33,912 nt of DNA from Flavicella sp. (GTDB lineage Bacteria > Bacteroidota > Bacteroidia > Flavobacteriales > Flavobacteriaceae). Of the stretch, positions 4,686-24,970 are shown piece after piece. The notes under the pieces are model-generated. The model did not search any database, had not been told where the DNA came from, and saw only the letters and a list, made by a program, of their open reading frames with translations. A program made the position numbers and the translations under genes. Every line of letters starts with the position of its first letter. Position 1 is the stretch's first letter. The stretch lies in NCBI RefSeq assembly GCF_029238425.1, contig NZ_JAQWGB010000192.1:1-33912 (forward strand). The letters run 5' to 3'.

Positions 4686-4689
4686 GCTA

Positions 4690-4697
4690 CAAACATA
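4690..4697 (-). promoter_or_regulatory. Candidate -7 box for the AAA-type gene (possible leaderless mRNA)
   Basis: TATGTTTG on the minus strand fits TAnnTTTG and ends four bases before the ATG at 4685. Transcription starting the usual few bases after the box would begin at or next to the start codon. No TTG is found 19-21 bases upstream, so support is partial. Confidence 0.35.
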
Positions 4698-4798
4698 CTA
4701 TTTTTAGCGTTGAATCGTTACTTATGGGAGCTTCAATCTAGGTATTAAGTCGGAATAAAATAAACAAAATCAACATTTCACAAGTCGTTGATTATATG

Positions 4799-4806
4799 TA
4801 ATTTTG
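4799..4806 (+). promoter_or_regulatory. Candidate -7 box for the DUF493 gene
   Basis: TAATTTTG fits TAnnTTTG and lies 46 bases upstream of the ATG at 4853. At the 19-base spacing the -33 region reads TTC rather than TTG, so this is a moderate match. Confidence 0.4.
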
Positions 4807-4852
4807 TGTTCTTGAAAATTAGAATAGAATACGTTTAGAAAATATAACAATA

Positions 4853-5134
4853 ATGAGTAAACAATCAGAGTTTTACGATAAGTTAAAAGAGAGTTTAGAT
4901 AATTCATCAACCTATCCATCAAAATATCTTTTTAAGTTTATAGTTCCTACTACTAAAAACCAATTGAAAGAGGTGAAAGATATATTTGATTTACCTGGGG
5001 TTGTAATCAATACAAAGGCTTCAAAAACAAATAAATACATCAGTGTTTCAATAACAAAAGTGGTGAAAAGTTCTGATGAGATTATTGCCAAATATAAAGA
5101 AGTAGCCGGTATAGAGGGAATTATTTCTTTATGA
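4853..5134 (+). CDS. DUF493 (YbeD-like) protein
   Basis: The 93-residue product fits the DUF493/YbeD family: a small ACT-like alpha/beta fold starting with a short helix (FYDKLKESL), then YLFKFIVPT, a helix, and SVSITKVVKSSDEIIAKY, ending in a conserved GIISL-type strand. E. coli YbeD lies beside lipB and was proposed to have a regulatory role, but no function is established. It lies 87 bases upstream of the PPIase genes on the same strand and may or may not share their transcript; a weak hairpin (AATAGG / CCTATT, 5189-5207) lies between. Confidence 0.88.
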   Translation: MSKQSEFYDKLKESLDNSSTYPSKYLFKFIVPTTKNQLKEVKDIFDLPGVVINTKASKTNKYISVSITKVVKSSDEIIAKYKEVAGIEGIISL

Positions 5135-5221
5135 TACTTTTAACACAGAAAGACATAACCATAGAATAACTTGCAAGATTGAATATAGAATAGGCCTAAC
5201 ACCTATTGTTTGTTTTAAAAT

Positions 5222-7117: not shown

Positions 7118-7964
7118 ATATATTTTTTACATATCGTTATGTGTTGCTTTTTCTAGTTGTGAAATGTTTCCTTTTAAAGAAAAGAAAAAAGATTCTAAGC
7201 TGATCGCTAAGGTGTATAACCATAAGTTGTATCAAGAGGATTTAGAATTGGTTTTTCCAAAAGATGTTGCCAGTAAAGACAGTGCAGAGGTTGCAAATAA
7301 TTTGATTTTATCATGGGCTAGGAAAAAATTACTTTTGCAAAAAGCAGAGGTAAACATGCCAAGCCAAAATGAAGAGTTGGAAGTGTTAGTGGAACGATAT
7401 CGAGAGGATTTGTTTATCAATTCTTTTAAAAAAGCTTTAGTTGTAAAAGAATTGGATACAGTAGTTTCTCATGAGGATTTGGAAAAATATTATGAGGAAA
7501 ATAAAGAGAGTTTTAAAATCAACGAGGAGTTGGTTAAGTTTAGGTATATTGCCTTGAAACCAACGGACAGGAATAGGGCTAAATACAAACGTTTGCTTTT
7601 GTCAAAATCTATGAATGATCTTTTTATTCTTGACGAGCAGACCGATAAAATGGAATCGGCATTTTTAAGCGATTCCTTATGGTTTCGATATAAAGATGTG
7701 CAAAGAAAATTACCGGTTTTAAAAAAATATAGCAAGGCTCATGTTTTAAAACCAAATAAATTTATTGCTAAAAGCCATGAAGGAGATTTGTATTATGTTT
7801 ATATAAAGGATGTTGTGAATAGAAATGAAATTGCTCCTTTGCGTTATATTTCTAAAACAATAGAGCAAATGGTGGTGCAGCAGCGTAAGTTGCAGATGAT
7901 TCATAAAGTAGAGGAAGTATTGGTGGATGATGCCATGAAAAACAAACAATTTGAAATTTATTAA
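7110..7964 (+). CDS. SurA-N-like lipoprotein of the PPIase operon
   Basis: The 284-residue product starts with GTG at 7110, inside the end of the preceding gene. A short signal peptide ends in the lipobox AFSSC, so Cys17 would be lipidated. The mature part begins with a strand-helix segment (LIAKVYNHKLYQEDLELVFP) like the N-terminal helix region of SurA and PrsA foldases. A segment near residues 135-260 may be a degenerate parvulin domain, but the usual HILI and GG motifs are missing. I infer a membrane-tethered chaperone partner of its two neighbours. There is no ATG alternative near the start, and the lipobox position supports the GTG. Confidence 0.8.
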   Translation: MNKYIFYISLCVAFSSCEMFPFKEKKKDSKLIAKVYNHKLYQEDLELVFPKDVASKDSAEVANNLILSWARKKLLLQKAEVNMPSQNEELEVLVERYREDLFINSFKKALVVKELDTVVSHEDLEKYYEENKESFKINEELVKFRYIALKPTDRNRAKYKRLLLSKSMNDLFILDEQTDKMESAFLSDSLWFRYKDVQRKLPVLKKYSKAHVLKPNKFIAKSHEGDLYYVYIKDVVNRNEIAPLRYISKTIEQMVVQQRKLQMIHKVEEVLVDDAMKNKQFEIY

Positions 7965-7965
7965 G

Positions 7966-9315
7966 ATGACAAAAAAAATATTATCACTTTTACCAATGCT
8001 TTTTTGTGTGCTAGTTTTACAGGCGCAAAAAATTAAAGTGGATGGTGTCGCTGTTGTGGTAGGAGAAAATATCGTGCTAGAGTCAGATGTTGCTAAATTT
8101 AAGCAAGAGGTTTACAATAATAGTGAAGGAAAAGTCACCATGTCTGATTGCGAAATGCTTGAGCAAATTATGTTGCAGAAGTTGTTGGCACACCATGCTG
8201 TTGTAGATAGTGTAATTGTTTCTGATGCTGAAATTGAATCGGGTGTAGAAAGAAATATTGCTTATTTGAAACAACAATTAGGTTCTGTAGAAAAGGTTTA
8301 CAAGATGTATGGTTTTGATGATGAAGCTGATTTGAGAAAAGAATTGCTTCGTATCGAAAGAGAAAACACTTTGATTCAAAGAGAGAAACAAAATGTAGTT
8401 TCTGAGGTGAATGTAACTCCTGAAGAAGTTCGTGTGTATTTTAGAAGTTTAGAGTCGCAAAACAATTTACCTGAATTTGGTGCAGAGATTGAAATGGCCC
8501 AGATTGTAATGCATATAAAACCTTCAGAAAAAGAAAATCAAGAAGTTATTGATAAATTAAAAGGAATTCGTCAAGATATTCTAAATGGTTCTAGTATGCG
8601 TATGAAAGCCGTTTTGTATTCAGAGGATCCAGGAGTGACGCAGAATGGTGGTAAGTATACATTGACTAGAGAAAGTCAGTTTGTAAAAGAGTTTAAAGAA
8701 GTGGCTTTTAGTTTGGATGAAGGTGAGGTTTCAGAACCTTTTAAATCTGATTTCGGATACCATATCATCCATTTAGAAAAAATTAAGGGGCAGGAGTTAG
8801 ATGTACGTCACATTCTAATTCAACCAAAGGTTACGCAAGAAAAGCTAAAGGAGGCTGAAGAAAAGATTACTCAAATAAGAGATAGTATTCTTGCAGATGA
8901 ACTTACTTTTGAGAAAGCTGTTATAAAGTATTCTCAGGACAAAGGAACACGTCAAAATAAGGGAATTATTATCAACCCTCAAACGAATGATGCCAATTTT
9001 GAGTTGACCAGAATGGATCCTAGTTTGTATGGAAGAGTAAGTTCTTTAAGCGTAGGTGATATTACGGAGCCGTTTTATGATGAAACGAGAGAAGGGTTAA
9101 AAATGTTTAAGTTAATTGTCTTAAGAGAAAAGAGAGAAGCTCATACGGCTGATTTCACAAGAGATTATGTGAAAATTCAACAAATGACTCTTCAGAAGAA
9201 GCAAGAAGACGCCATGGAGAAATGGTATAATGATCATGTGGTTGAAACCTTTGTAAAGATAAATGAAAGCAATAAGAGTTGTGATTATAAATATCTTTGG
9301 GGACAAGAATTATAA
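7966..9315 (+). CDS. SurA-like periplasmic PPIase with two parvulin domains
   Basis: The 449-residue protein, read from ATG 7966 two bases after the upstream stop, has a signal peptide (residues 1-20, cleavage in LQA-QK). A SurA-type N-terminal domain opens with VDGVAVVVGENIVLESDV (about 25-42). Parvulin domain 1 spans about 173-272 (AQIVMHIKP, NGGKYTL, FGYHIIHL). Parvulin domain 2 spans about 278-385 (VRHILIQP), where the usual glycine pair is partly lost (NKGIIINP). The family architecture matches E. coli SurA, the main chaperone for outer-membrane proteins. A TTG 15 bases upstream (7951) is in frame, but the ATG puts the signal peptide at the usual distance. A terminator follows directly. 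Confidence 0.93.
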   Translation: MTKKILSLLPMLFCVLVLQAQKIKVDGVAVVVGENIVLESDVAKFKQEVYNNSEGKVTMSDCEMLEQIMLQKLLAHHAVVDSVIVSDAEIESGVERNIAYLKQQLGSVEKVYKMYGFDDEADLRKELLRIERENTLIQREKQNVVSEVNVTPEEVRVYFRSLESQNNLPEFGAEIEMAQIVMHIKPSEKENQEVIDKLKGIRQDILNGSSMRMKAVLYSEDPGVTQNGGKYTLTRESQFVKEFKEVAFSLDEGEVSEPFKSDFGYHIIHLEKIKGQELDVRHILIQPKVTQEKLKEAEEKITQIRDSILADELTFEKAVIKYSQDKGTRQNKGIIINPQTNDANFELTRMDPSLYGRVSSLSVGDITEPFYDETREGLKMFKLIVLREKREAHTADFTRDYVKIQQMTLQKKQEDAMEKWYNDHVVETFVKINESNKSCDYKYLWGQEL

Positions 9316-9317
9316 AA

Positions 9318-9346
9318 AAAGAGAGCTAATTAGCTCTCTTTTTATT
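9318..9346. terminator. Bidirectional terminator between the SurA-like gene and rsmD
   Basis: GAGAGCTAA-TTAGCTCTC is a perfect palindrome flanked by seven A residues on the left and five T residues on the right, so it can end transcription from both convergent genes. It starts three bases after the SurA-like stop and ends one base before the rsmD stop. Confidence 0.92.
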
Positions 9347-9347
9347 G

Positions 9348-9887
9348 TTAGTCTTTTTCAAAAAAACTAAAAACATTTCCACCATATCTTTTCTCATACG
9401 AGAAATTAGGATGATCATTTAGTTTTGTCTGTTTGGAGTGTTCAATAATCAATAGACCTTCTTCATTCAGTAAATCCTTTTCAAAAATAATAGTAGCAAT
9501 TTTTGAAAAATCTTCATCAGAAAAATTATAAGGTGGGTCTGCAAAAATGATATCTGCCTGAATTTTTGTTTTGTCAATAAATTTATAGACATCACTTTTG
9601 ATGGTATTGATGTCAAAATCAAATTCTTTACATACTTCATTGATGTATTTGATGCAACCATAATGCTTGTCTACTGAAGTTATCTTTTGAGTCCCTCTAG
9701 AGGCAAATTCAAAACTGATATTTCCAGTACCGCTAAAAAGATCCAAAACTTCTAAATCTTCAAAATAATAAGTATTGTTAAGAATATTAAAAAGGGATTC
9801 TTTTGCCATGTCCGTTGTTGGACGAACCGGTAGGTTTTTAGGAGCGCTAAGACGTCTTCCTTTATGCTTTCCAGAAATGATTCTCAT
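9348..9887 (-). CDS. rsmD: 16S rRNA (guanine(966)-N2)-methyltransferase RsmD
   Basis: RsmD methylates N2 of G966 in 16S rRNA within the assembled 30S subunit. The 179-residue protein starts MRIISGKHKGRRL, as the family does, followed by RPTTDMAKESLFNIL, the SAM-binding motif I VLDLFSGTGNISFE (near 47-60) and the catalytic DPPY motif (FADPPYNF near 117). Length is usual. It is the last gene of a minus-strand group with DUF3822 (29 bases upstream) and ends at a shared bidirectional terminator. Confidence 0.96.
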   Translation of the reverse strand: MRIISGKHKGRRLSAPKNLPVRPTTDMAKESLFNILNNTYYFEDLEVLDLFSGTGNISFEFASRGTQKITSVDKHYGCIKYINEVCKEFDFDINTIKSDVYKFIDKTKIQADIIFADPPYNFSDEDFSKIATIIFEKDLLNEEGLLIIEHSKQTKLNDHPNFSYEKRYGGNVFSFFEKD

Positions 9888-9916
9888 TGTGTATAAAGTC
9901 TGTTAAATATGACTGT

Positions 9917-10753
9917 TTAGTTAAAAAGTATAGCGTTTGCATGTTTGGGCAAACTTTGAAACTCTTCTCTGTTGGATAAAGCATTGGCTTCATAAAAAGA
10001 GATATGTCTGATGTAAGTGTAAAGAATAGAGTATAATTCTGACTCTTTTTCGATATCACCTATCAATACCAGTTGTAATGTTTCTGGGTCGAGTTTTAGT
10101 TGTTCAGCGGTAAAAAGTATGTAATAAATAAAATCTTCAGCAGTTTGAAATTCAAATCTATTCACAACTTGAAGCTGGTTTTGTTTGAACGCTACTAATT
10201 CAAAGTTTTTATTATTTACTTGTATGTAAATTTTATCAGAAGCAGCTGTCACGTCTTCTTTAGAAGTGATTTCAATAAGTTTTGTAAAACTATGGAAATA
10301 CTCAAAAGAGCCATAAATATTGAATAAGAAATTATTGATATTTACAAATGGGATATATACGGTGTTTCTTTTTTCTGATGTATCGAAGCAAATAAAATCA
10401 ATTGGTAAAACCTTTACAGTATGTTGTAGATAGTCTTTTAAATTGTCTTCATGAAACAGTTCATCAGGGACCAGGGTTGCCAACTCATTTTGGTGGACAA
10501 CTTCGACTTTTTTAAAATCTTGACCTAGAAATTCATTTTGATCAAAAATAGTTTCAATTTCCCTGAGGTGAGTCTCGGGTGTAAGTGCTTTTTGCTCAAA
10601 TTCAAAACGTTGAAAAACGAGTGGATTCTTTTCAGGTAGCGTATAGACACAAAAAGAAAATCCATCCAAATTAATTTGGATGGACAATTGAGTTTCTTTT
10701 AAATCAGTATTTTCAACCGATTTAGAAATTATGTTATTTAACCTTTTTGTCAT
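9917..10753 (-). CDS. DUF3822 family protein
   Basis: This 278-residue protein (from ATG 10753; a further in-frame ATG lies at 10774) matches DUF3822, a Bacteroidetes-restricted family. The N-terminal part has LSIQINLDGFSFCVY and later YIPFVNINNFLFN; the C-terminal part has IYYILFTAEQLKLDPE and LVLIGDIEKESELY. My recollection is that such proteins have an actin/ASKHA-like fold without clear nucleotide motifs; nothing in the sequence proves that. It overlaps the end of the upstream membrane-protein gene by 20 bases and precedes rsmD, an order often seen in this phylum. Function is unknown. Confidence 0.85.
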   Translation of the reverse strand: MTKRLNNIISKSVENTDLKETQLSIQINLDGFSFCVYTLPEKNPLVFQRFEFEQKALTPETHLREIETIFDQNEFLGQDFKKVEVVHQNELATLVPDELFHEDNLKDYLQHTVKVLPIDFICFDTSEKRNTVYIPFVNINNFLFNIYGSFEYFHSFTKLIEITSKEDVTAASDKIYIQVNNKNFELVAFKQNQLQVVNRFEFQTAEDFIYYILFTAEQLKLDPETLQLVLIGDIEKESELYSILYTYIRHISFYEANALSNREEFQSLPKHANAILFN

Positions 10754-11459
10754 AAAAAGGAGGCCAGTTTCCATTTGAGTTAACTTCTTCTAAAGAACCT
10801 ACAGATAAAAATTCACCTTTTACCTCATCTCCACCAATAGCTTCTTTTTCTTGTCTTACTAAGTGAGGATCTAATCCTTCTAAAATTACTGCTTTATCAA
10901 CTTTGGCAATAAATACAGGAACTTCTAGTCCAGCTACTTTAGTAATGTATCCTACAGTGATTTTGAATTCTTCATTCGTATCAGGTACTTTAAGCATCTG
11001 AGTATAGTCTCTTCCTTTGAATACTGTTTCTTTTACAGATTCGTATCCAGTTGTATCAGTTACTTTCTCTTCAACTTCCACCATAATAGGTTGCCATTTG
11101 GTTCCTTTGTTAACCTGCTTGATTTCGTTGTGAGTATTTGTAATAGCAAATTCTGCTGAGTCTAAAAACTTGATTAGTTTTTCTCCGTTTCTTTCAAATT
11201 TTCCTGTAATTGTTTTGTGTGCATCTTGTGCATCACGAATCATTCTTAAATTCTCAATTACTTTAGCGTATCTAACCTTCTTTTCAACATTGAAGCGAAT
11301 AGGTCCCATAATACTATCATAGATAGAATAACCTAAATATCCTGCTACACCAAGTAGTACTATTGAAACAAGCCACTGAAGTTTTAAAGGAATGAATTTC
11401 ATAATAAGGATAGCTAACAAAACTGCTACTGCAATCCCTGCAATTAAAGTAATTATCAT
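10734..11459 (-). CDS. Membrane-anchored protein of unknown function
   Basis: The 241-residue product has two membrane segments at the N-terminus (about residues 2-20 and 27-46, joined by the short loop KFIPLKLQ). A soluble part starts with a helix (FNVEKKVRYAKVIENLRMIRDAQDAHK) that resembles the start of a pilin-like or coiled-coil domain, followed by a predicted beta-rich tail. No family was recognised. I infer an inner-membrane protein with a periplasmic domain. It heads the DUF3822-rsmD group, overlapping the next gene, and has a TAnnTTTG box upstream. Confidence 0.8.
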   Translation of the reverse strand: MIITLIAGIAVAVLLAILIMKFIPLKLQWLVSIVLLGVAGYLGYSIYDSIMGPIRFNVEKKVRYAKVIENLRMIRDAQDAHKTITGKFERNGEKLIKFLDSAEFAITNTHNEIKQVNKGTKWQPIMVEVEEKVTDTTGYESVKETVFKGRDYTQMLKVPDTNEEFKITVGYITKVAGLEVPVFIAKVDKAVILEGLDPHLVRQEKEAIGGDEVKGEFLSVGSLEEVNSNGNWPPFYDKKVK

Positions 11460-11489
11460 TGTGATTTAAGTTTTAAAAATTGAATTAGA

Positions 11490-11497
11490 CAAATCTA
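11490..11497 (-). promoter_or_regulatory. Candidate -7 box for the membrane-protein/DUF3822/rsmD group
   Basis: TAGATTTG on the minus strand fits TAnnTTTG and ends 31 bases before the start codon at 11459. At 19-20 bases further upstream the sequence is TTT rather than TTG. Confidence 0.45.
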
Positions 11498-11542
11498 CAA
11501 TTTTTTTTGAACCATAAAAATTTTTAAGGACAAATCAATCCC

Positions 11543-11550
11543 TATCTTTG
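11543..11550 (+). promoter_or_regulatory. Candidate -7 box for the RecD-like helicase gene
   Basis: TATCTTTG fits TAnnTTTG and ends 15 bases before the ATG at 11566. The -33 position at 19-base spacing reads TTT. Its last three bases form the TTG that would otherwise be taken as an upstream start codon. Confidence 0.5.
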
Positions 11551-11565
11551 CTTTTTTTTGACCCT

Positions 11566-12996
11566 ATGATTAAAACCTCCTCCAATTTTTATAAAGAATT
11601 GATAAAAACGTTTCCTTTTGAGGCTACAAGTACTCAAAATGAGCTGTTAATGATGTTGTCAGAATTTCTTTTCTCAAAAGATTCTGACGCAGTTTTTTTA
11701 TTAAAAGGGTATGCCGGAACTGGTAAGACATCTACTATAAGCACTTTGGTAAATAATTTATGGAAAATAGGTCAAAAACCGGTTTTACTTGCGCCTACGG
11801 GTAGAGCAGCAAAAGTGATTTCTTTGTATTCCAAAAAACAAGCTTTTACCATTCATAAAAAAATCTATCATCCTAAAAAAAACTCAAATGGTGGGGTGGA
11901 GTTCACAAGACAAGTTAATAAGCATACCAACACCGTGTTTTTTGTAGATGAAGCTTCTATGGTGCCAGATGCTCCAAGTAATTCAAAGTTATTTGACAAT
12001 GGTTCTTTGCTTGATGATTTAATGGATTATGTGTATTCTGGTAAAAATTGTAAGATGATTTTGATTGGTGATACTGCTCAATTACCACCTGTGAAATTAG
12101 AAGTAAGTCCTGCGTTGAATGAGGATAATTTAAGTTTTCATTATAACAAATCGGTTTCTTTAATAGAATTGGATGAAGTGATGCGTCAGCATAAAAATTC
12201 GGGGATATTGGTAAACGCAACAGAATTAAGAATGTTTATTAGCAATGATAGTTTTGCTGATTTTCAGTTCAATTTAGAGTATCCCGATGTAGTACGTTTG
12301 GTGGATAGTTATGATATTCAAGATGCGATTCACACGGCATACGACCAACATGGGATTGATGAAACTGCTATAGTAGTAAGGTCAAATAAAAGAGCCAACC
12401 AATACAATCAACAAATTCGAACGAGAATTTTAGACAAAGAAAATGAAATCTCCGTAGGGGATCATATTATGGCTGTAAAAAACAATTATTTCTGGTTGAA
12501 AGATTCCGCAGAAATTAGTTTTTTAGCCAATGGAGATACTTTTGAGGTGTTAGAGATTTTTAACACCAAAGAGTTGTATGGTTTTCGTTTTGCTGAAGTT
12601 AAAATTCGTTTGATAGATTATCCATCTCATCCACCTGTTGAGACTGTTTTATTGTTGGATACCTTGATGTCTGAAAGTCCATCACTCTCTTATGAGGAAT
12701 CGAATAGGTTGTATCAAGAAGTAGGAAAGGACTATGCGGATATTAAATCAAAATATAAAAAACTCTTAGAGATCAAGCAGAATAAATATTTTAATGCCAT
12801 TCAGGTAAAATATTCGTACGCTATGACTTGTCATAAGTCTCAGGGGGGGCAATGGGATACGGTTTTTATTGAAAAGCCATATTTGCCAGACGGGCAGAGT
12901 GTTGATTATTGGAGGTGGTTGTATACGGCAATTACAAGAGCAAAATCTAAATTATATCTTTTAGGTTTTCAGAACGAAGATATAGAAGAGCTTTAA
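11566..12996 (+). CDS. RecD-like superfamily 1 DNA helicase (AAA_30 / UvrD_C_2)
   Basis: This 476-residue 5'-3'-type SF1B helicase has Walker A GYAGTGKT (residues 48-55), APTGRAAKV (76-84), Walker B VDEAS (127-131), motif III GDTAQLPPV (168-176), motif V TCHKSQGGQWD (near 425) and motif VI AITRAKSKLY (near 460). The layout matches RecD/Dda-like helicases rather than full RecD2, since the N-terminal helix-hairpin repeats are missing. It probably acts in DNA repair or replication restart. ATG 11566 is preferred over TTG 11548, which lies in the -7 box. The stop overlaps that of the convergent LpxR-like gene. Confidence 0.93.
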   Translation: MIKTSSNFYKELIKTFPFEATSTQNELLMMLSEFLFSKDSDAVFLLKGYAGTGKTSTISTLVNNLWKIGQKPVLLAPTGRAAKVISLYSKKQAFTIHKKIYHPKKNSNGGVEFTRQVNKHTNTVFFVDEASMVPDAPSNSKLFDNGSLLDDLMDYVYSGKNCKMILIGDTAQLPPVKLEVSPALNEDNLSFHYNKSVSLIELDEVMRQHKNSGILVNATELRMFISNDSFADFQFNLEYPDVVRLVDSYDIQDAIHTAYDQHGIDETAIVVRSNKRANQYNQQIRTRILDKENEISVGDHIMAVKNNYFWLKDSAEISFLANGDTFEVLEIFNTKELYGFRFAEVKIRLIDYPSHPPVETVLLLDTLMSESPSLSYEESNRLYQEVGKDYADIKSKYKKLLEIKQNKYFNAIQVKYSYAMTCHKSQGGQWDTVFIEKPYLPDGQSVDYWRWLYTAITRAKSKLYLLGFQNEDIEEL

Positions 12997-13949
12997 TTAA
13001 ATTTATAGGATATTTGTATGCTTCCATAAGTGTTCATGTTTTCCTCTATTGCTTCTGTTTTTTTAGAATATTTGATGATGGAATAGGAAAGGTCAAATCT
13101 TTTTATCGAATACCTCAAACCGAATTCCAATTCATAAATAAAGGAATTGATCCCATAGGTAATTGGACTGTTGTCATTAAATAAACTTCCTTGAATGGTT
13201 GCATTGTAAAGTGCATATCCTAGTTGAGGTTTGATAAATAAAAACAACTCATTTTTCTGGTTTTTGTCTATGTCATTCAAATTACTAGCAAAAAGACTGC
13301 TGTTTGAATACTTGTTTAATGGCCGATTGAATAAATTAATTCTGCTGTAAATATTAGTGTTCAGTTCTGAAAAAATAGTTCCAAGTTTGAAAGAGGTGGT
13401 TGAGGTGAAGTCAATTCTCTTTTGTTCTTTTTTACTAAAGGGCTTTAAAAATAAAAATTGCATTCCAATACCCAAGGTGTTTTCAATTTGGTACTGCCAT
13501 CCTTCTGCAGGAGAAAACCCATATATATTATGGATGATATTCTGAAGATCTTGAGCCAAAGCATCAGGTCCTAAAATTCCTAATTCAAAAGAGGACTTTA
13601 AACCGAAGTTTTTATCGGAAAAAAACAATTGACTGTAGTTGATAAAAGCATAACCTGCATAGGGACGATCTATTGCTTCCGGAAAATGTGAATTTGCAAA
13701 TTGAGGTGTATACATTTGCTGACCGATTCTAAACTCATGAACCTTTTTTATTTTCGATTTTGTTCCAAGGTATCTAAAATATAAAAAGGTTCCATTTGTG
13801 TAATAACGATCATAATAGGTAGAAGTGTAAAGATCATTATCGCTGATCAATCCAAACTCTTTGGAAAAAGATTTTTGAGCACATGCTTCCTCAGTATTCA
13901 AAAAACAAAGGAAGAGGAGGTTAAGAAATAAGAAAAAATGGTTTTTCAA
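12993..13949 (-). CDS. LpxR-family outer-membrane lipid A deacylase
   Basis: The 318-residue product has a signal peptide (residues 1-24, ending ACA-QK) and the LpxR (DUF2219) pattern. Visible motifs are DNDLY with N38-D39, DRYYTNG (47-53), DRPYAG (94-99) and a GILGPDA...H segment with H140. In Salmonella LpxR an N-D pair and a His belong to the active site that removes the 3'-acyloxyacyl chain of lipid A, so catalysis looks intact. The C-terminus ends in alternating strands (IQISYKFN) with a terminal hydrophobic-Phe-Asn signature of beta-barrels. The start is TTG (13949); no ATG lies nearby. It follows lipA, separated by a strong terminator. Confidence 0.87.
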   Translation of the reverse strand: MKNHFFLFLNLLFLCFLNTEEACAQKSFSKEFGLISDNDLYTSTYYDRYYTNGTFLYFRYLGTKSKIKKVHEFRIGQQMYTPQFANSHFPEAIDRPYAGYAFINYSQLFFSDKNFGLKSSFELGILGPDALAQDLQNIIHNIYGFSPAEGWQYQIENTLGIGMQFLFLKPFSKKEQKRIDFTSTTSFKLGTIFSELNTNIYSRINLFNRPLNKYSNSSLFASNLNDIDKNQKNELFLFIKPQLGYALYNATIQGSLFNDNSPITYGINSFIYELEFGLRYSIKRFDLSYSIIKYSKKTEAIEENMNTYGSIQISYKFN

Positions 13950-13984
13950 AGGGATACTGCTTTTATCAGGAAAAGATAGTAAAA

Positions 13985-14021
13985 AAACAAAAAAGCTCTG
14001 ATTTAGAAATCAGAGCTTTTT
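13985..14021 (-). terminator. Terminator downstream of lipA
   Basis: An almost perfect hairpin (AAGCTCTGATTT / AAATCAGAGCTT around AG) is flanked by A and T runs on both sides. On the minus strand it lies 84 bases after the lipA stop and 36 bases before the LpxR-like start. It probably insulates the two minus-strand genes; its symmetry allows bidirectional use. Confidence 0.88.
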
Positions 14022-14104
14022 TACTAACCAAACTTAATTTATGAAATGAAAGGTAACCACTCCCTTCGAAAAGGATAATGCAATTACCGTGCCAAAAAAT
14101 AAAT

Positions 14105-14974
14105 TTAGTTAATGTGTTTTTGAGCTTTGTATGAAGAACGTACCAAGGCGCTGCTCTCAACGTGTTTAAAACCAAGCTCTAAGCCTATAGTTTCGTATTT
14201 TTTAAATTGTTCTGGTGTAATGAATTCTTTTACAGGTAAGTGTTTTTTACTTGGTTGTAAATATTGCCCGATGGTAACCACATCTACTTTTGCTTTTGCT
14301 AAATCATGCAAAGTTTCAATTACTTCGTCTTCAGTTTCTCCCAATCCTAACATGATACCAGATTTGGTTCTTCTCTGACCATTGTCTTTTAGATATTTTA
14401 GAACTTCCAGACTACGATCGTATTTTGCTTGAATACGTACTTCACGAGTCAATCTTCTTACCGTTTCTAAATTATGAGAAATAACTTCTGGAGCCGCTCT
14501 TAACAAACGATCGATATTTTTTTCGATTCCTTGAAAATCTGGAATCAATGTTTCAAGTGTCGTGTTTGGATTAGCTCTTCTAATAGCCTGAATTGTTTCT
14601 TCCCAAATAATGGAACCACCATCTTTTAAATCATCTCTATCTACCGAAGTAATCACGGCATGTTTAATTTTCATGATTTTAATAGATCGTGCAACTTTTT
14701 CTGGTTCGTCCCATTCTACCGTTTCAGGTCGCCCCGTCTTTACACCGCAAAAACCACAAGACCTTGTGCATACATTTCCTAGAATCATAAAGGTTGCTGT
14801 ACCTTCGCCCCAGCATTCTCCCATATTAGGACAGCTTCCACTGGCACATATGGTGTTAAGTTTGTATTTGTCAACCAAACCTCTTAGTTCCGTGTATTTT
14901 TTTCCAACCGGAAGTTTTACGCGCAACCATTTTGGCTTGGTAACTTTATTTTCTTTAATTGCTTCTTCTGACAT
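14105..14974 (-). CDS. lipA: Lipoyl synthase (radical SAM)
   Basis: LipA inserts two sulfur atoms into protein-bound octanoyl groups to give lipoyl cofactors of 2-oxoacid dehydrogenases and the glycine cleavage system. The 289-residue protein carries both iron-sulfur signatures: the auxiliary cluster [12 protein letters not shown] (C43, C48, C54) and the radical [11 protein letters not shown] (C69, C73, C76). [22 protein letters not shown] and GLGETEDEV follow, and the C-terminal RSSY motif, whose Ser coordinates the auxiliary cluster, is present. It appears monocistronic, with a TAnnTTTG box (14997-15004) upstream. Confidence 0.98.
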
Positions 14975-14996
14975 AACCTGTTATTTTAGGTGCATG

Positions 14997-15004
14997 CAAA
15001 GTTA
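14997..15004 (-). promoter_or_regulatory. Candidate -7 box for lipA
   Basis: TAACTTTG on the minus strand fits TAnnTTTG and ends 22 bases before the lipA start codon. No TTG is present at the usual -33 spacing. Confidence 0.4.
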
Positions 15005-15096
15005 CAAATAAAGTCGTTCAATTGTTTATGTAAATATTTTAAAAATAGCAATGCATAACTAACAAATTGAGGATAGAATTCTTTTACATTTTGAAT

Positions 15097-18000
15097 TTAA
15101 TAAACAGCAACTTTTTTAGATACAGTCCCCTTCGATGTTTTTAGTTTTACGATGTAAATTCCCTGAGCCATTTCTTTAGTATTGATTTCAAGATTTTCTT
15201 TTTCATATTGAATTAGTGTACCTAACGAGTTTGAAACAGTCAATTCGGAAATTTCAAGGTCACTTGGTTTTGAAATGGTTATTTTTTGAGTTTTTTTGTC
15301 AAAACGGATGTATAGATTTTCAACATCAGTTAACTCGTTAGCTAAAACTTCATTCTCCTTAAATACAATGGAGAAACGATCAGAGTATTTCCCCTTGTTT
15401 AATGTTAAAGTAGTTCGGCTTCCAGTCTCTAATGGAGTAATCGTTTCAGCTAAATTATCTTTAAGGAAAACTGGGTATTCTATATTTATCCTTTCATCTA
15501 TCATCAAATAAGCATTTCCTGTGTAATTCATAGAGATGGTTAGAGGAACCTCTAGGTCTACAGAAATTTCTTGAATTCCTGCAATAGCATAGGCTTGTCT
15601 ATCGCCATTGAATTGGAAATATGCGTCTGTTCCATCCAAATCAAAGACCTGGCTATCATAGCCCTCTTCTTGTCCAAAAGTATTACCCTCTTTAAAAGAA
15701 ACAGCAATTTGCCTATGTAAATCAAAACCATCGTCATTATTGTATTCAAACCCAAGTTTTAGAACGGGTAATTCATCATTTTGAGATTTTGATTTTTTAT
15801 TATTTCCTTTGAAAAAATGTGAATTACCATTTCCAACAGGAGTATGTGTGCTAAGTGCTCTTTGTGAGTTGTTGAAGGTAATGGTTCCTCCGTTTAGACC
15901 CGCCTTTAAAAAGAAACCTTGCGCAACAGGTATATGTCTTTGTGGAGCGTGATACGTTGCATTCCCTAGCCCTGCGGTGTTGTCAATAGCTACTGTTGCT
16001 GCGGTACCTGTACTCGCGTTTCTAATCCCATAACCTCCTTCGTACTGACCCTGGGTATGATTTCCTCCATCGCCAGTGTGTTCCCAAAAGTATAGAGTAG
16101 ATATTATGGATGAGTTATCCGCAAAAAACTCATCAGCATCCAAAGGTGACGGATAAGGATTACCAAGTAAAGAGTTGTGCCCTGCACTAATAGTGGTTGT
16201 ATAATCACCATCATGAGGTGTACCGACAAAAGTATAGTTTTGAGCAGCTCCAGGTCCTTTTAAAATAAAAGCTTCACCGGCATCGAAAGAGCCTGTTTCT
16301 TTTTGTTGAATCCAGGAAGTTCCTGTCAATCCATTTACATAACTATAGATCCAATAGTTTGCGATGGTTAGTGAGTTTCCTCCAGAGGCAAGACTACCAT
16401 TTAGGGTGCTGTAGTTTCCTGTAAATGATTGGAAGTTTATTTCATCTGGCGTAGAAGTAGCTGTTAAAGGTGTTGTTCCGTCTTTTAAAACTTCCCCTAC
16501 TGTAAACATACTCGATTGTCCTAGTGTGGAAACAGGAGAGGTTAGATAATTGTATCTAAAAACAGTCTCTGCTGTGGCGGTTTGCTCAATATAAAACTTT
16601 CCATTACCTGTAACTTTAGAGGTTCCAGTATGCGTTTGGATTAATTGTGCATCTCCTAACATTTTTAAATCTCCGTCCAACTGCAAGTCGTCCGCTATTT
16701 GTAGGTATAAATTTGTGTCAACACTCAAAACGGATCCAGATTTGATCCATAGACATCCAATCTCTATATTTTCATTTAGAATTGCGTCCGCACCGCCATT
16801 GCTATCTATAGTAACTAACTCAGTATCGTCAGTATCATCCGGTGCTCCCGAGGTTTGACTTGAAGATCCGCCAGACCATGCTCCTGAACCTCCATTGGCA
16901 GATCCGTCCCATGTGATACCATTTACTTCTGTAAATGTGAAATATTTGGTTCCGTCAAAGTCGAAGGTTCCCGTTAGTTGATTGATTCCATTAATGTTAC
17001 TTGTGGACAATGATACAAATTCAACATTTGTAGTTAATGCTTCATTGTCTGCTACTTTTATGGCTATTTGAATACTCGGACTTGTATCAAGGTCAGTTCT
17101 TATATCAGATTCAGGAGCTGCTATCTGCACCATACCGACAGATCCAGTTTCTACGATTTTCCATACACGATTCAGAATTTGTGAAGAACTGCATAAAACT
17201 GAAGTTGCCGTTGTTTTTCCCGTTGCGTTGTTGTTTCCCCACATCAAAAAGTCTTTGTCGGTTGTAAAAGTATTCACATTAGAGGCGTTGTCTGTTGCAA
17301 TAGATCCAAGTCCAATAGTTATTAATGCATCTGAGTTTACGGATTTTGATTGTTTTTGATTTAAGTTTCTTGTTTCATCCAATCCTATTCCGGCGATGTC
17401 ATTGTGATGAGCAGAATTGTCATCATAACTCCAAACTTTGGTGGATCCGTTTGAAAGTAGGTAATCTCCTTCAGTAATAGAACCACTATTATTTGTGTCA
17501 TCCAATGTGAATCCATACTTAATTCCTAAATAAGATTCAATAACTTGTCTTTCTGCATCTGTGTGAGCATTTGTAAATAACATGATTTCTGCTATGCTAC
17601 CATCAATAGTTCTATCATTTATATTTCTATCTCTTCCGGCATAATAGTCGGTTGTGTTATTTGAAAAATTACTTGTGAAAATTCTTGATTGTAGTTCAAA
17701 GTTATCTGGTCTATCATGACTGTTTAAATCCGTATTCAATCCATTTACAAAATTTGAATTACTATCTCTAACTTCGGTTGGAGTATAAGTTGTATTGAAA
17801 ACCTGTGTATCGTCAGAGTGGCCATGACCAATATTATTACTAGTGTTGGTGAATGGAGTTGTCCACGAAGCTGTGGAAGCATCATTATAAACGATATACA
17901 TTGTTCTAGGGTTCATATTTGCATTTGAAATACTTAGAACATCATTGTTTCCTGGTGTAAACGTAATTACAGGGTTAAAGTTTAATAGGTTTTGTGTAGC

Positions 18001-21000
18001 ATCCGGCTCAGAACCACCGCTTCCCGTAAAATTATTATCATCCGTAAAGTCGTTATTGTCATTGGTGTCACTTTGATCTTGCCAGGTAGTAACAGTCGCC
18101 CCGCCGATGACACCTGAATCTGCTCTTAGCCAAAGTGTATTTCCAATTCCAGAAGTAACATCAATAGTATCATCTCTAAAATCTACATCCCCTCCAGTTA
18201 ACAAGTCGGTATCAGAATCTGGTAAACCTGTAAGGTTATCAATGTTTCCGTTTACGTCTAAGTAATCATTGGACGTGTATATATTGCTATCCAAACCATT
18301 CACACCGTTTGCTCCACTTAAAGTCAGCCCCGCTTCGATAGTATCGTCTTGGCCTTCGTTATCCGAATCTGTATCTATATAATCCTCATTATCAGTCCCG
18401 TCGGTGTTTACAGGTGTTAGTCCACCTAAATAAGCGGAGTTCACTCCATTGTTGTTCTCATATGTTTGGGAATCGTCGTTGGCAGGAGGGATATAGCTAT
18501 TGGTAAGTTGAGCTTCAAGGTTATCCGGAATTCCATCACCATCTGAATCTAAATCTAAATAATTTTTGATTCCATCATTATCAGTATCTAAGATGGTTCC
18601 TTCTTCAGTGTCTAGAATTCCATCGTTATCATCATCAAGGTCAACGGTATCATTTACACCATCATTGTCATTATCACCTATGCTAGTTGCATCTCTAAAG
18701 TCCACATCTCCACCAAAATTCATGTCACCGTCCGAATCTGGTAAGTTTTCTGGATCGTTTAAAATCCCGTTTACATCCGAATAATTATCAATAGTATCAA
18801 TGTTGTTGTCTAAACCATTAAGTCCTACATTTCCATTTAAAGTAAGGTTTGCTTCGGTGGTATCATTACTACCTTCATTATCAGAATCTGTGTCTAGATA
18901 ATCTGGGTTGTCTACACCATCTGTGTTTATAGGAGTAAGTCCTGATGGATAGGCAGTATCAACACCAGAATTATTGTAAGTCCCATTTGGAGGTATGTAG
19001 CCTATTGTTGTTTGGGCTTCTATATTATCAGGGATCCCATCTCCATCAGAGTCGAGATCTAAAAAGTCGGATATTCCATCTAAATCAGTATCTGTTGGAT
19101 TGGTTAATGGGTTGTTATCATTGTCTAAATTGGCATCTTCAACAGTATCATAAATCCCATCATTATCATCATCCAAATCCACATCATTTGCAATTCCATC
19201 ATCATCTGTATCAGGGAACCCACTAATTAATTTGATAAAAATAGCCGAGTCATAAGAATTATCTGTTACGTCACAGATTGCAAATTTTACATGATATGTT
19301 TCACCAGGAGTCAAACCTGTAGCTGATGCTCTTATTTTTTTAGTTATTCCATCATATTCAATGGAGAGATTTCCACTACTATTGTCTGTGAAATAAGAAG
19401 ATTGCGTCAAGTCGCCGCAATTAGCTGCGTTTCCACTAGAACCAACAGAACCATTGTTTAAGTTGTTTATTGAAACGGTATTGTTTGTCCCTGGAACCAA
19501 GGCGATATTTTGCGCACCTACAATTTCATTTCCAGAAACAAAATATCCGAATACGTCATTAAAACTAGAGCATACGTATTCGTTGTATTCATCCGATGCA
19601 AATTGATAATCTATAGTAAGAACCGTTGCTTCTTCGTCTAGTTCAGCATCAAATTCAAAGATTACAGGGTCATTCATAGAACCGCTTGCAAGTGGGTCCA
19701 AATCAGTGTCATTTGTAGAGGTACCATGACTTGTTGTGCTTCCCCCGCTTGAGTTTGTAGAAAAAGATTCTGTAACGGTTCCTGTTGTTAAAATAATTCC
19801 ATCATCCACCTCAAGCCCTTTACCTTGGATAGCTCCCACAAAAGTTCCTATCTGAGTTCCTTGTCCTGTCGTTATTGTTTGGTTTGTGATTGTAACTCCT
19901 GGTCCTTCAATAGAGTTTTTTAAATCGGTAGCACTTGCACCTGTTGTAAACGAAAAAGGAGTGGATTGCGTATTGTCTCGGTAGTCAATATCACCTCCTG
20001 AATTTAAATCAGCATCGGTATCCGGAAGTGTTGTAGGATCATTTAAAGAACCATTTACATCTGAATAATCATCGATTGATTCATAGTTTGAGTCCAGACC
20101 ATTTGAACCGTAAATTCCAGACAAACTGTAACCGGCTTCTGTGGTGTCATTGTCTCCTTCATTGTCCGAATCGGTATCTTGGTAGTCAGGGAGTGCATCT
20201 CCTTCTGTGTTTATTGGCGTAAGTCCACCAGAATAAGCAGTGTCTAAACCATTTGCATCGTAAGAATGATTTGGTGGGATATAACTATTGGTAGCTTGAG
20301 CCTCCACATTATCTGGAATACCATCATTGTCAGAATCTAAATCTAGATAGTCGTAAATACCATCATTATCGGTGTCTTCGGGAGTACAAGACACAATGTT
20401 TTTTAGCTGATTGATTTCACTAAAAGTAAGGGACTTATCGTAATGATAGATTTCATCCATCAATCCAGTAAAATAATGTCCACTACCGGAGCCAAATGCA
20501 TTGTTTGAGTTTGTAGCACCAAATCCACTTCCGTTTCCATGGTTTGTCAAAGTGGCTTCTTCAGTATCTACGGAGCCAGAAGGAATACCATCCAAATAGA
20601 GGGTTAATATTCCTGCTTCAAAAGTAGCAGCAATATGATACCATTGATTTAGGGTACTTATGGTGAATGTAGGAGTGGTGAAGATGTTAGTGGCCGTGTC
20701 ATTGTTGATCGCACATTCTAGTGTTGTTCCGTTAAGTCTTATTGCAAAACCTCTACCTGTAGCACCTTCTTCTACTAAGGTTTGTTCTCCACTTAAGGAT
20801 TGAGGGTAGATCCAAAAAGAATATGTAAAGTTAGCAATAGTCTGATTTAAAAATGTACCATCACTATAATGCAATATAGTTGAAGATCCATCAAACTGAA
20901 GAGAAGTACTTCCTTGAATTGCAATAGGGCTATAGACTTCTGTTATTCCAGTTTGTAGGTTGTAGGCATTGTTTGTTGAGTCATTTGTGGTGTTGTCCAA

Positions 21001-21321
21001 AGACCAGTAAGCATCATAACCAGATATTGGGGTACAGGTGTTTTCTACTTCATCCAAAATACCATCATTGTCATCATCCAAATCAGCCAAGTCATCAACA
21101 CTGTCTGCATCATTATCAGAAGCGAAAAAAGCATAGGCGTATGTTTGTGGGGTTTTCGTATCACTTAAAATATTTTGAAGGACACTCTCTTTAAAAATAA
21201 AAGAGGTATAGTCAAAAGAATTTGGGTCTATTGGTTTTTTTGCAAAAGCACTTGAAAAGCCGAAGAAAAACAATAAATATACCAATAAAACTATTGGAGG
21301 TGAATAGGTTTTTTTGAACAT
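15097..21321 (-). CDS. Giant T9SS-secreted protein with thrombospondin type 3 repeats, LamG and choice-of-anchor L-like domains
   Basis: The 2074-residue product starts with a signal peptide (residues 1-27, ending AFA-KK). A TSP3 calcium repeat (about 69-96, [12 protein letters not shown]) is followed by a LamG/concanavalin-like domain (about 99-310, [23 protein letters not shown]) and a TSP3-rich module (314-447). Next come a choice-of-anchor L-type domain (about 448-700, [38 protein letters not shown]), two further copies of the module (701-873 and 874-1047), and a second lectin-like region resembling DUF8202 (about 1050-1340, [19 protein letters not shown]). A beta-rich middle leads to a type A T9SS sorting domain at about 2000-2074 ending [15 protein letters not shown] plus a basic-hydrophobic tail. 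It is probably exported and anchored at the cell surface for adhesion or gliding-type contact; the ligand is unknown. Confidence 0.93.
18180..20390 (-). repeat. Three copies of a TSP3-containing module inside the giant gene
   Basis: A module with fixed landmarks occurs three times in the coding strand, at about 20390-19980, 19218-18700 and 18700-18180. The landmarks are DLDSD-DGIPDN-EAQ, a YIPP turn, GGLTP(I/V)NT (SGLTP in the second copy), [12 protein letters not shown], a D-DVNG turn, LPD-D-D and GGD(I/V)D(F/Y)RD. The first copy is separated from the others by the choice-of-anchor L-type domain. Copies 2 and 3 lie back to back. Acidic Asp-rich loops would bind many calcium ions. Confidence 0.85.
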
Positions 21322-21532: not shown

Positions 21533-23215
21533 ATGGGAATTATTTCATTTGTAGGCTTTACTGCTTTGGTAGCGATTATAGCTTATTTGGCAACAAGGAA
21601 AAATAAACAATCAGCGGACGGATACTTTTTAGGTGGACGTAGTTTGACAGGGCCTGTTATTGCTGGTTCTTTGCTACTTACAAATCTATCAACAGAACAA
21701 ATTGTAGGTTTGAATGGTGCAGCCTTTGATGAAGGGATTTTAGTGATGGCATGGGAAACATTAGCAGCAATCGCAATGGTTGTAACAGCTGTGTTTTTGT
21801 TGCCGAGGTATTTAAAAGGAGGAATTACTACAGTACCTCAATTTTTAGAGAGTAGATATGATAAATTGACTAAAACTTTGGTTTCTGGATTGTTTCTATC
21901 AGGGTATGTAGTTGTTTTGTTGCCTATTGTATTGTATTCGGGTGCTTTGGCAGTAAATACTATGTTTGATGTTCCTAAGTTGTTAGGAGTAGGGGAGTTT
22001 ACAGGATTGTATATTACTGTTTTTGCAATTGGAACGATTGGAGTTTTTTATGCAGTATTTGGAGGATTGAAAGCCGTTGCCGTTTCGGATTCAATAAATG
22101 CAGTTGGGTTGTTAATTGGAGGATTGGCGATTCCTGTTTTTGGTTTGATGGCAATTGGATCTGGTAGTATTGGAGAAGGACTAGATGTTTTAGTTTCTTA
22201 TTCTAAACCGTTAGGTAAGATGAATTCTTTGGGAGGACCTGAGGCATCTGTACCATTTGGAACTATATTTACCGGGATGATGTTAGTTCAGTTATTTTAC
22301 TGGGGAACAAATCAAGCTATTATTCAAAGAGCCTTAGGAGCTAAAAATTTAGCTGAAGGACAAAAGGGGTTATTATATGCAGCATTTTTGAAAATTTTAG
22401 GACCTTTGATGTTAGTGCTGCCAGGTATGATTGCATTTTATATGGCACAACATCCAGAAAGCTTTAACTTTTTTGCTGCTGGAGATGCGATCAACAAAGA
22501 TCAAGCGTATCCATTGTTAGTAAAGCAAGTGTTGCCGGCTAGTATGGTTGGCTTTTTTGCTGCAGTTTTGTTTGGAGCTATTTTGAGTTCATTTAACGGA
22601 GGGTTAAACAGTTCTGTTACTTTATTTGGATTGGATATTTACAAGGCTCATATCAACACAGAAGCATCAGATGCGAAAGTTGTGAAAGTGGGTAAAACAT
22701 TTGGAATATTTTTAGCGATTGCTGCCATGTGCATTGCTCCTTGGCTGATCAAAGCATCTGGAGGATTGTTTGCATACTTACAAGAGGTAAACGGATGTTA
22801 CTCTATTCCAATTTTTACAATTATTGTGGTTGGGTATTTGACAAAAAGAGTACCGGCTATAGCAGCAAAGATTGGATTATTTTCAGGTGTTGTATTGTAT
22901 TCAATAAGTCAGTTTATTATCAAGCCTATGATGGTAAGTTCAGCAGTTGCAGATGCAAAAGCATCAGGAGTTTCCGATGCATTGGAGTTGGCAATGATTG
23001 AAAGTACTGCTTATCCACATTTCTTGCATGTAATGGCTATATTATTTGTATTGAATATTGTAATTATGCTTATCATTGGAAAATTAAAACCGAGAGAGGT
23101 TGATTTTGTTCAGGAGTACACAGAACAAGTAGATATCAAACCTTGGAGTATTTTGAAGCCTGTAAGTATTGTAATTTTAGTAATTGTAGTTGGTATTTAC
23201 ATCTATTTTAGCTAA
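21533..23215 (+). CDS. SSS-family sodium:solute symporter, YidK-like
   Basis: This 560-residue inner-membrane transporter has about 14 hydrophobic segments and the SSS signature. It closely resembles E. coli YidK (LLTNLSTEQIVGLNG, FLPRYLKGGITT, LPIVLYSGALA). Aligned by motif with vSGLT, the sugar-site positions are Q56, E75, A78 (Ser in vSGLT), Q253 (Asn in vSGLT), K287 and Q417. The inner-gate Tyr is Y256, and the sodium-site Ser pair is S352-S353. A sodium-coupled sugar or sugar-like substrate is therefore likely, but identity is unknown. It is followed by its own terminator, then by a second SSS gene. Confidence 0.92.
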   Translation: MGIISFVGFTALVAIIAYLATRKNKQSADGYFLGGRSLTGPVIAGSLLLTNLSTEQIVGLNGAAFDEGILVMAWETLAAIAMVVTAVFLLPRYLKGGITTVPQFLESRYDKLTKTLVSGLFLSGYVVVLLPIVLYSGALAVNTMFDVPKLLGVGEFTGLYITVFAIGTIGVFYAVFGGLKAVAVSDSINAVGLLIGGLAIPVFGLMAIGSGSIGEGLDVLVSYSKPLGKMNSLGGPEASVPFGTIFTGMMLVQLFYWGTNQAIIQRALGAKNLAEGQKGLLYAAFLKILGPLMLVLPGMIAFYMAQHPESFNFFAAGDAINKDQAYPLLVKQVLPASMVGFFAAVLFGAILSSFNGGLNSSVTLFGLDIYKAHINTEASDAKVVKVGKTFGIFLAIAAMCIAPWLIKASGGLFAYLQEVNGCYSIPIFTIIVVGYLTKRVPAIAAKIGLFSGVVLYSISQFIIKPMMVSSAVADAKASGVSDALELAMIESTAYPHFLHVMAILFVLNIVIMLIIGKLKPREVDFVQEYTEQVDIKPWSILKPVSIVILVIVVGIYIYFS

Positions 23216-23353: not shown

Positions 23354-24970
23354 ATGACAACAGGATTTCATTTTTGGGATTACTTCATTTTTGTAGCTTA
23401 TGCAATTCTTATTTTAGGAGTAGGATTGTGGGTTTCTAGAGATAAAGATGGACATCAAAAAAATGCGGAAGATTATTTTTTAGCCAGTAAATCATTACCA
23501 TGGTGGGCTATTGGAACATCTTTAATTGCAGCAAATATTTCAGCAGAACAATTTATTGGGATGTCTGGATCAGGATTTGCTTTAGGTTTGGCTATCGCTT
23601 CTTATGAGTGGATGGCAGCCTTAACACTTATTATCGTAGGAAAATATTTCTTACCAATATTTATTGAAAAAGGACTTTATACAATTCCGGAATTTGTTGA
23701 AAAACGATTCTCAACAAATTTGAAAACTATTTTAGCTGTTTTCTGGATTGGATTGTATGTATTTGTGAATCTTGCATCTGTATTGTATTTAGGAGGATTG
23801 GCTATTGAAACGATCATCGGTATTGATATGATGTATGCCGTAATTGGTTTGTCTCTTTTTGCTGCTGCCTATTCATTATACGGAGGATTATCTGCCGTAG
23901 CATGGACAGATATTATTCAGGTGGTTTTCTTGGTGTTAGGTGGTTTGATTACTACTTATTTGGCTTTGAATACCGTTTCTGGAGGAGAAGGAGCATGGCA
24001 AGGTATGGTAGCTGTATATGAGGCAGCTCCGGACAGATTTAACATGATTTTAGAAGAAAGTAACCCACAATATGCAAACTTACCAGGAATTGGAGTTTTA
24101 GTTGGAGGATTATGGGTAGCAAACTTATATTACTGGGGATTCAATCAATATATCATTCAACGTACCTTAGCTGCGAAATCATTAAAAGAATCTCAAAAAG
24201 GTATTTTATTGGCAGCTGCATTAAAGTTGATCATTCCTTTTATTGTTGTAATTCCTGGAATTGCAGCATATGTGATTGTTAATGACCCTGAATTGATGGC
24301 TAGCTTAGGAGAGGTTGGGAAATTAAATATGCCAAGTGTAGATGCTGCTGATAAAGCATATCCTTGGTTGTTACAATTCTTGCCAACTGGATTGAAAGGA
24401 ATTGCATTTGCAGCATTGGCCGCAGCAATTGTATCTTCATTGGCTTCTATGTTGAATTCAACATCTACGATCTTTACAATGGATATTTATAAGCAATACA
24501 TTAACAAAGAGGCAAACGATAAAACAACGGTAAATGTTGGTCGTATCTCAGCAGCGGTTGCCTTGGCAATTGCAGCAGTAATGGCTCCTTTATTAGGTGG
24601 TATTGATCAAGCATTCCAGTTTATTCAAGAATACACAGGTATTGTAAGTCCAGGTATCTTGGGTGTATTTATGTTAGGATTGTTCTGGAAAAAGACAACA
24701 AACAAAGCTGCTATCTGGGGAGCATTATTATCAATTCCAGTGGCCGTATTGTTTAAAATGACGAGCATGCCTTGGATGGACCAAATGGGATTGACTACTT
24801 TGGTGACGATGGCCATTATTATTGCAATTAGCTTCTTGCAAAATAAAGGTCAGGATGATGAAAAAGGAATTGATTTGACTAAAGGTGTATTTAATACTTC
24901 GCCATTATTTAATATAGGTTCTTTTGCAATTATGATTGTGCTAGTTGCATTGTATGCGATGTTCTGGTAA
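23354..24970 (+). CDS. Sodium/sugar cotransporter, vSGLT-like (SSS family)
   Basis: The 538-residue protein resembles Vibrio parahaemolyticus vSGLT along its entire length, including NISAEQFIGMSGSG, IEKGLYTIPEFVEKRF and IQEYTGIVSPGILGVF. With a constant offset of three, the vSGLT galactose site maps to Q66, E85, A88 (Ser91 in vSGLT), N257, K291 and Q425. The outer gate maps to M70, Y84 and F421, the inner gate to Y260, and the sodium site to A59, I62, S361 and S362. Only Ser91 to Ala differs. It probably imports galactose or glucose with sodium, but the substitution could alter preference. No sugar-catabolic gene is nearby. It has its own terminator. Confidence 0.96.
   Translation: MTTGFHFWDYFIFVAYAILILGVGLWVSRDKDGHQKNAEDYFLASKSLPWWAIGTSLIAANISAEQFIGMSGSGFALGLAIASYEWMAALTLIIVGKYFLPIFIEKGLYTIPEFVEKRFSTNLKTILAVFWIGLYVFVNLASVLYLGGLAIETIIGIDMMYAVIGLSLFAAAYSLYGGLSAVAWTDIIQVVFLVLGGLITTYLALNTVSGGEGAWQGMVAVYEAAPDRFNMILEESNPQYANLPGIGVLVGGLWVANLYYWGFNQYIIQRTLAAKSLKESQKGILLAAALKLIIPFIVVIPGIAAYVIVNDPELMASLGEVGKLNMPSVDAADKAYPWLLQFLPTGLKGIAFAALAAAIVSSLASMLNSTSTIFTMDIYKQYINKEANDKTTVNVGRISAAVALAIAAVMAPLLGGIDQAFQFIQEYTGIVSPGILGVFMLGLFWKKTTNKAAIWGALLSIPVAVLFKMTSMPWMDQMGLTTLVTMAIIIAISFLQNKGQDDEKGIDLTKGVFNTSPLFNIGSFAIMIVLVALYAMFW

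Follow-up and report, generated by a model that had tools for sequence, protein, structure and literature searches.

The 2074-residue protein analysed here likely belongs to a family of T9SS adhesins in which exchangeable, probably disulfide-stapled head domains are carried on a thrombospondin type 3 (TSP3) stalk and swapped by recombination. It is encoded in the window, by which we mean the whole 33,912-nucleotide stretch of Flavicella sp. DNA under analysis. Its stalk modules and those of its relatives share a socket, the inserts that fill this socket are bracketed by cysteines and diverse, the same socket of co-linear proteins holds different heads, and a near-identical head pair occurs in two sockets of a single protein. 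The geometry of head and stalk at the socket is predicted from the domain order. The broader proposition, that the Flavobacteriaceae maintain a dedicated cysteine-bracketed plug-in site in T9SS TSP3 stalks for dozens of unrelated, recombination-swapped heads, stands at about an even chance; if it is true, the heads would act as cassettes by which surface specificity is altered.

The giant surface-type protein is encoded by a single open frame on the minus strand, and the best segment of its orthologue from Flavicella marina (L019) is 64% identical to it. The features are as follows.

15097-21321, minus strand: giant T9SS-type surface protein, 2074 residues, with residues 1-2074 matched by the F. 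marina orthologue

21238-21321, minus strand: probable signal peptide, residues about 1-28, from a by-eye reading of the sequence

21040-21117, minus strand: TSP3 pair preceding socket 1, residues 69-94, closing with a DxDDDNDGIxD-type motif

20386-21036, minus strand: head of socket 1, a LamG domain from C96 to C312, based on PF13385, AF2, PDB matches and the cysteines

19975-20376, minus strand: module core M1, residues 316-449

19228-19926, minus strand: choice-of-anchor L domain at residues 466-698, which separates two modules and is outside any socket, based on NF038133

19138-19212, minus strand: TSP3 pair preceding socket 2, residues 704-728; the socket is empty (18-residue linker, no cysteine)

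18691-19092, minus strand: module core M2, residues 744-877

18601-18675, minus strand: TSP3 pair preceding socket 3, residues 883-907; the socket is empty (7-residue linker, no cysteine)

18172-18588, minus strand: module core M3, residues 912-1050

17497-18171, minus strand: second lectin-like domain at residues 1051-1275, of which the genus has two divergent versions

15106-15279, minus strand: T9SS type A sorting domain, residues 2015-2072, based on NCBIfam TIGR04183

The threefold module of this giant protein, described in an earlier note on the same DNA, was confirmed within the one frame. The three TSP3-type modules, of 134-139 residues, are 65-68% identical; their cores align pairwise at 91/134, 87/134 and 90/134 identities, with global scores of 499, 450 and 458 far above the shuffled means of 46-48 (maximum 108.5; 500 shuffles per pair). 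The landmarks YIPP (residues 347/775/943), DTDSDNEG (382/810/983) and DVNG (421/849/1022) are all present in triplicate and follow one order in every copy, whereas the note's landmark SGGLTPIN is literal only once and reads SGLTPIN and GGLTPVN in the other copies. The choice-of-anchor L-type domain does set one copy apart, lying between modules 1 and 2 with an NF038133 match at E 4.7e-61 (206 bits against a cut-off of 27, profile positions 2-216 of 219). LamG-like domains had been proposed on both sides of the modules. The N-terminal one was recovered by Pfam PF13385 at residues 161-303 (E 5.3e-21, 75.8 bits against a cut-off of 27.6) and lies inside the first module, where it separates the TSP3 pair from the core, rather than merely beside the modules; support for the C-terminal one is weak, as described below.

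Further assignments vary in strength. The sorting domain scored 31.1 bits with TIGR04183, above the cut-off of 23, and 25.1 bits with PF18962 in Pfam, just under the cut-off of 27. The bacterial TSP3 model PF18884 gave only a weak match of 13.2 bits, under its cut-off of 25; DxDxDG motifs are present, and the stalk is therefore called TSP3-like. AF2 modelled residues 60-455 at a mean pLDDT of 54.4, with the stalk below 50; within the LamG domain 13 of about 22 ten-residue blocks reached pLDDT 68-91, and the first third was poorly modelled. The best PDB matches of the LamG model are to generic jelly-rolls of the ConA type, among them toxin binding domains, pentraxins and an arabinanase domain; no toxin relationship is read from them. 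A PDB sequence search with the whole protein returned no match at E 0.01. Residues 1281-2000 (15322-17481), about 700 residues in which neither Pfam nor NCBIfam has a family over cut-off, are matched wholly or partly by paralogues on contigs C183, C133, C98, C71 and C155 of the same genome and could possibly be the real functional core.

Each module opens with a TSP3 pair ending in DxDDDNDGIxD, and a head domain sometimes lies between this pair and the core. Sockets 2 and 3 of the window protein run directly to the core through their short cysteine-free linkers, while socket 1 is filled by the LamG domain flanked by C96 and C312; a paralogue on contig C183 (L013) carries three inserts of this kind, all with cysteines at both edges. 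Socket patterns were written from the window, the own-genome paralogues and loci L019-L022, and were then applied unchanged to held-out loci. An insert of at least 100 residues defined a filled socket, and a cysteine within 16 residues of both edges defined a bracketed one, the edge window having been 14 residues in the first listing; all counts use the wider 16, a choice made before any held-out locus was read. The discovery set, including the window, comprised 99 sockets, since only those 99 of 252 pre-socket motifs with a recognisable following core were counted; the held-out set (L120-L159 without L131) comprised 53. L100 and L131 were excluded, being the same as L019 and on the same contig as L027, respectively.

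In the discovery set 45 of the 55 filled sockets had cysteines at both edges, six at one and four at neither, against both-edge cysteines in 2 of 44 shorter sockets. The held-out set gave 19 of 26 filled sockets with both, three with one and four with none, against 0 of 27 shorter sockets with both and two with one. Random pairs of internal windows from the filled inserts carried a cysteine in both at a rate of 0.7%. Removal of near-duplicates left 44/54 versus 2/40 in the discovery set and 19/25 versus 0/22 in the held-out set. A second held-out set covered 12 loci, five of which contained the ten sockets counted, and these were bracketed in 1/1 filled and 0/9 shorter cases; one countable locus came from outside the family and contributed one empty socket. 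Exactly two cysteines were present in 55 of 63 bracketed inserts. The N-edge and C-edge cysteines covary after near-duplicate removal (63 inserts with both, seven with the N-edge only, two with the C-edge only, seven with none; Fisher p 3.6e-5, not corrected for relatedness). Such p-values overstate independence, because close relatives occur among the loci and 8 of the 19 bracketed heads from the held-out set share clusters with discovery heads.

The 63 bracketed heads, drawn from 39 proteins in 33 loci, form 27 BLAST clusters, which are sequence clusters rather than folds, two of them being both F5/8 type C; one bracketed insert (L141 at 48; 629 residues, nine cysteines) spans several domains. 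When 20 representatives from 25 listed were scanned against Pfam, three exceeded the cut-offs, namely PA14 (L013) and F5/8 type C (L143 and L159), to which the window's own LamG head may be added; the other 17 head types had no match over cut-off, and MAM, DUF642, CBM_4_9 and others appeared among the heads below it.

Different heads occupy the same socket of co-linear proteins, whose orthology rests on that protein co-linearity. The proteins on L013 (own genome), L101 (F. marina) and L103 (G002) are 60-74% identical in heads 1 and 2 and 64-85% in the flanking modules, yet their third socket holds a 159-residue PA14 domain, a 146-residue cluster-1 head and a 227-residue LamG domain, respectively. 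These three heads are unrelated (16-30% apparent identity) between flanks that are 64-77% identical. Likewise, socket 5 is filled (143 residues) on L102 and empty (7 residues) on L103, with flanks 74 and 78% identical. On L109 (G005), a single protein has LamG heads in two of its sockets that agree at 98.3% over 783 nt, the longest exact run being 490 nt, whereas the following cores range in 45-nt bins from 30/48 to 44/45; the whole repeat reaches 91.0% over 1272 nt. Recent transfer of a head copy from one socket to another accounts for this pattern better than a whole-module duplication does, but such a duplication with later conversion may also have produced it. Socket flanks within the window gene share 60-78% DNA identity, which is modest for homologous recombination. 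Paralogues of the giant gene occur as tandem pairs on L102, L103, L104 and L108, and such pairs could help recombination between heads. On L108 (G005), the window gene has a syntenic counterpart at 8896-15381 that is broken into four overlapping frames and may represent a decayed gene or a sequencing artefact, and the tandem paralogue beside it (646-8820) is one open frame.

The second lectin-like domain lies outside any socket and seems to have been replaced as well. Its identity to the F. marina orthologue is 33% by BLAST and 43% in the full-length alignment, against 60-63% by BLAST to the Polaribacter loci L020 and L022, while its neighbours are 81% (M3) and 79% (residues 1281-1420) identical to F. 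marina. In the window protein residues 1051-1275 have no Pfam match at E 0.01; 4 of 12 homologous segments match Laminin_G_3, the best at 1.9e-9. Profile comparison with the first LamG domain by hhalign gave a probability of 5.5% and E 0.007, the AF2 model of residues 880-1300 a mean pLDDT of 35.9, and a PDB sequence search with the domain one chance-level match at E 0.76.

The module core was found in 53 of 120 Flavobacteriaceae genomes (E 1e-15), and a phylum-wide draw recovered it in 19 of 247 at E 1e-8, 16 of them in the family (own genome included) and 3 outside. Export by the T9SS is plausible, as SprA_N (PF14349) is over its cut-off in the own genome and in none of 14 control genomes. 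Searches of six Flavicella genomes detected neither DsbB nor VKOR, and DSBA-family proteins were present in three of the six and absent from G005, which has bracketed sockets; on these counts no standard oxidation route was found. A bond of the C96-C312 type may thus form uncatalysed, form via another oxidase, or be absent.

In the proposed mechanism, the T9SS would export the giant adhesin to the cell surface, where the Asp-rich TSP3 modules would act as a calcium-dependent stalk, Asp-rich TSP3 loops being known to bind calcium in other proteins. Each module would offer a fixed socket between the TSP3 pair (DxDDDNDGIxD) and the core, either closed by a short, nearly always cysteine-free linker or filled by a head, the nameable heads being predicted beta-sandwich or jelly-roll types. 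The edge cysteines, probably joined as a disulfide, would staple the neighbouring termini of the head, and the stapled head would hang off an uninterrupted stalk. LamG, PA14, F5/8 type C and many unnamed heads would pass between sockets and paralogous genes by recombination, and this exchange would diversify what the cell binds. How these bacteria change surface specificity becomes testable, since there are co-linear genes that a single head in a single socket sets apart. In addition, the order TSP3 motif, Cys, head, Cys, TSP3 motif provides a sequence rule for picking candidate binding domains in giant marine Flavobacteriaceae proteins.

Terminal disulfides are common among extracellular domains, and the cysteine pair might accordingly belong to each head family and have arrived with it, leaving the socket as a tolerated insertion point only. 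Profiles of six head families recovered 26 further copies outside the bracketed list, of which 18 have cysteines on both sides, although by our own reading TSP3 motifs flank 13 of these 18; on L132, both cysteines accompany a PA14 copy that no TSP3 motif precedes, which fits a pair travelling with the head. We consider this explanation unlikely. LamG, PA14 and F5/8 type C heads share the bracket with similar spacing, the first cysteine lying 3-14 residues past the TSP3 motif and the last 0-12 residues before the next one. In the L109 protein two LamG domains outside sockets have no flanking cysteines, whereas three of the four within sockets have both, which suggests that the bracket follows the socket rather than the head type; the family of the second lectin domain, outside sockets, is cysteine-free in 12 of 12 members. 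Filled sockets lacking one or both edge cysteines (10/55 in the discovery set, 7/26 in the held-out set) come to 16 inserts after near-duplicate removal, some of them mis-delimited by the pattern. On L024 at 1726 the pattern misplaced the edges and a profile search puts both cysteines at the head edges, and the non-conforming inserts of L145 and L136 are Asp-rich spacers rather than obvious domains. True exceptions, with a LamG domain in a socket but no cysteine, are L111 and the final LamG copy on L109; the insert of L142 resembles a further cysteine-free head. Near the short LamG-socket protein of L111 (G005), positions 6185-7127 consist of tandem 96-nt units about 99% identical to one another.

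The bracketed-socket reading also has to be set against accounts that place the emphasis on the stalk or on polysaccharide. The earlier note had read the protein as having grown by internal duplication of a calcium-bound stalk with several heads. The evidence supports internal duplication of a stalk that is rich in Asp, probably binds calcium and carries several heads; growth by recent duplication, with strain-variable length as in tandem-repeat adhesins, is not supported and is very improbable here. In its favour are the similarity of the three modules, the varying module number among paralogues and deeper relatives (two full modules, none before the anchor L domain, in Polaribacter L020 and L022 and in L021, a Bacteroidia MAG), and the long 90-99% identical internal repeats of L129, L136 and L150, which look like recent stalk growth, unlike the window gene. 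Third codon positions between the module copies, however, are only 40-43% identical and fourfold sites agree at 11-12 of 33-38; dS between the copies had no computable value, and the silent sites look saturated. F. marina has the same domain order, the same three modules and a conserved gene order, close to the finding, identical module number and equal divergence of all copies in relatives, that the note had named as speaking against recent expansion. A tree of 35 cores groups each of M1, M2 and M3 with the F. marina core at the same position (ultrafast bootstrap/SH-aLRT 97/98, 96/93 and 96/75, the last under the mark for strong support), and the triplication is therefore older than the split between the window species and F. 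marina. The exchange of heads in fixed sockets is the more telling process than module multiplication. Named head folds often bind carbohydrate, and the protein might be mainly a scaffold for degrading or capturing polysaccharide, with heads serving as carbohydrate-binding modules, rather than an adhesin. A TSP3-repeat operon of Zobellia rises on alginate or laminarin according to the accessible part of PMC5613140, but no catalytic family was over cut-off in the 2074 residues by Pfam or NCBIfam. We regard the scaffold as improbable, although the unassigned residues 1281-2000 might still hold such a function. Beside the giant gene, the otherwise co-linear loci differ in their SSF symporter genes: the gene at 21533-23215, flanked by the giant gene and by another SSF gene (23354-24970), has no one-to-one partner on L019, whose single SSF gene is 93% identical to the latter and 33% to the former.

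Among known systems, thrombospondin type 3 repeats (PF18884) share the Asp-rich DxDxDG repeats with the present stalk, but their model has 22 positions and leaves the 134-residue core and the socket beyond its coverage; in animal thrombospondins the heads are at the ends of the stalk. The choice-of-anchor L proteins (NF038133) are represented by a domain that here separates two modules and has a start region free of cysteine. Earlier work listed proteins with TSP3 from marine Flavobacteria (PMC5219744, PMC5613140, PMC2668756), and TSP3 repeats are known from ice-binding proteins (PMC9957290); the accessible parts of these four papers do not describe the socket. For the genome of Lutibacter profundi, adhesion domains of the TSP_3 and LamG types and Por_Secre tails were reported, the account in the part consulted giving domain names only, without socket, cysteine bracket or head exchange (PMC5219744). 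A literature search of titles and abstract openings, a coverage that mostly leaves aside subscription journals and bioRxiv preprints, returned no description of the socket. The closest parallel is found in the RTX adhesins AhLap of Aeromonas, FrhA of Vibrio and MpIBP, in which a stalk domain is split by a ligand-binding domain that joins the stalk through its neighbouring termini and projects outward, the heads of such split domains including PA14 and carbohydrate-binding modules (excerpts of PMC12077191 and PMC10865825). A comparable insertion is predicted here from the sequence order, in which LamG lies between TSP3 pair and core. The host domain of the RTX adhesins is an Ig-like domain or an RTX roll, AhLap carrying a type I secretion signal, whereas the host here is TSP3 with a T9SS type A tail. 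The cysteine bracket is a further difference, the words "disulfide" and "cysteine" being absent from the accessible main text of PMC12077191, and "disulfide" from that of PMC10865825. The window protein gave no RTX family in the Pfam or NCBIfam listings at E 1, and its proposed system would work like the RTX split-domain adhesins without being a member of them.
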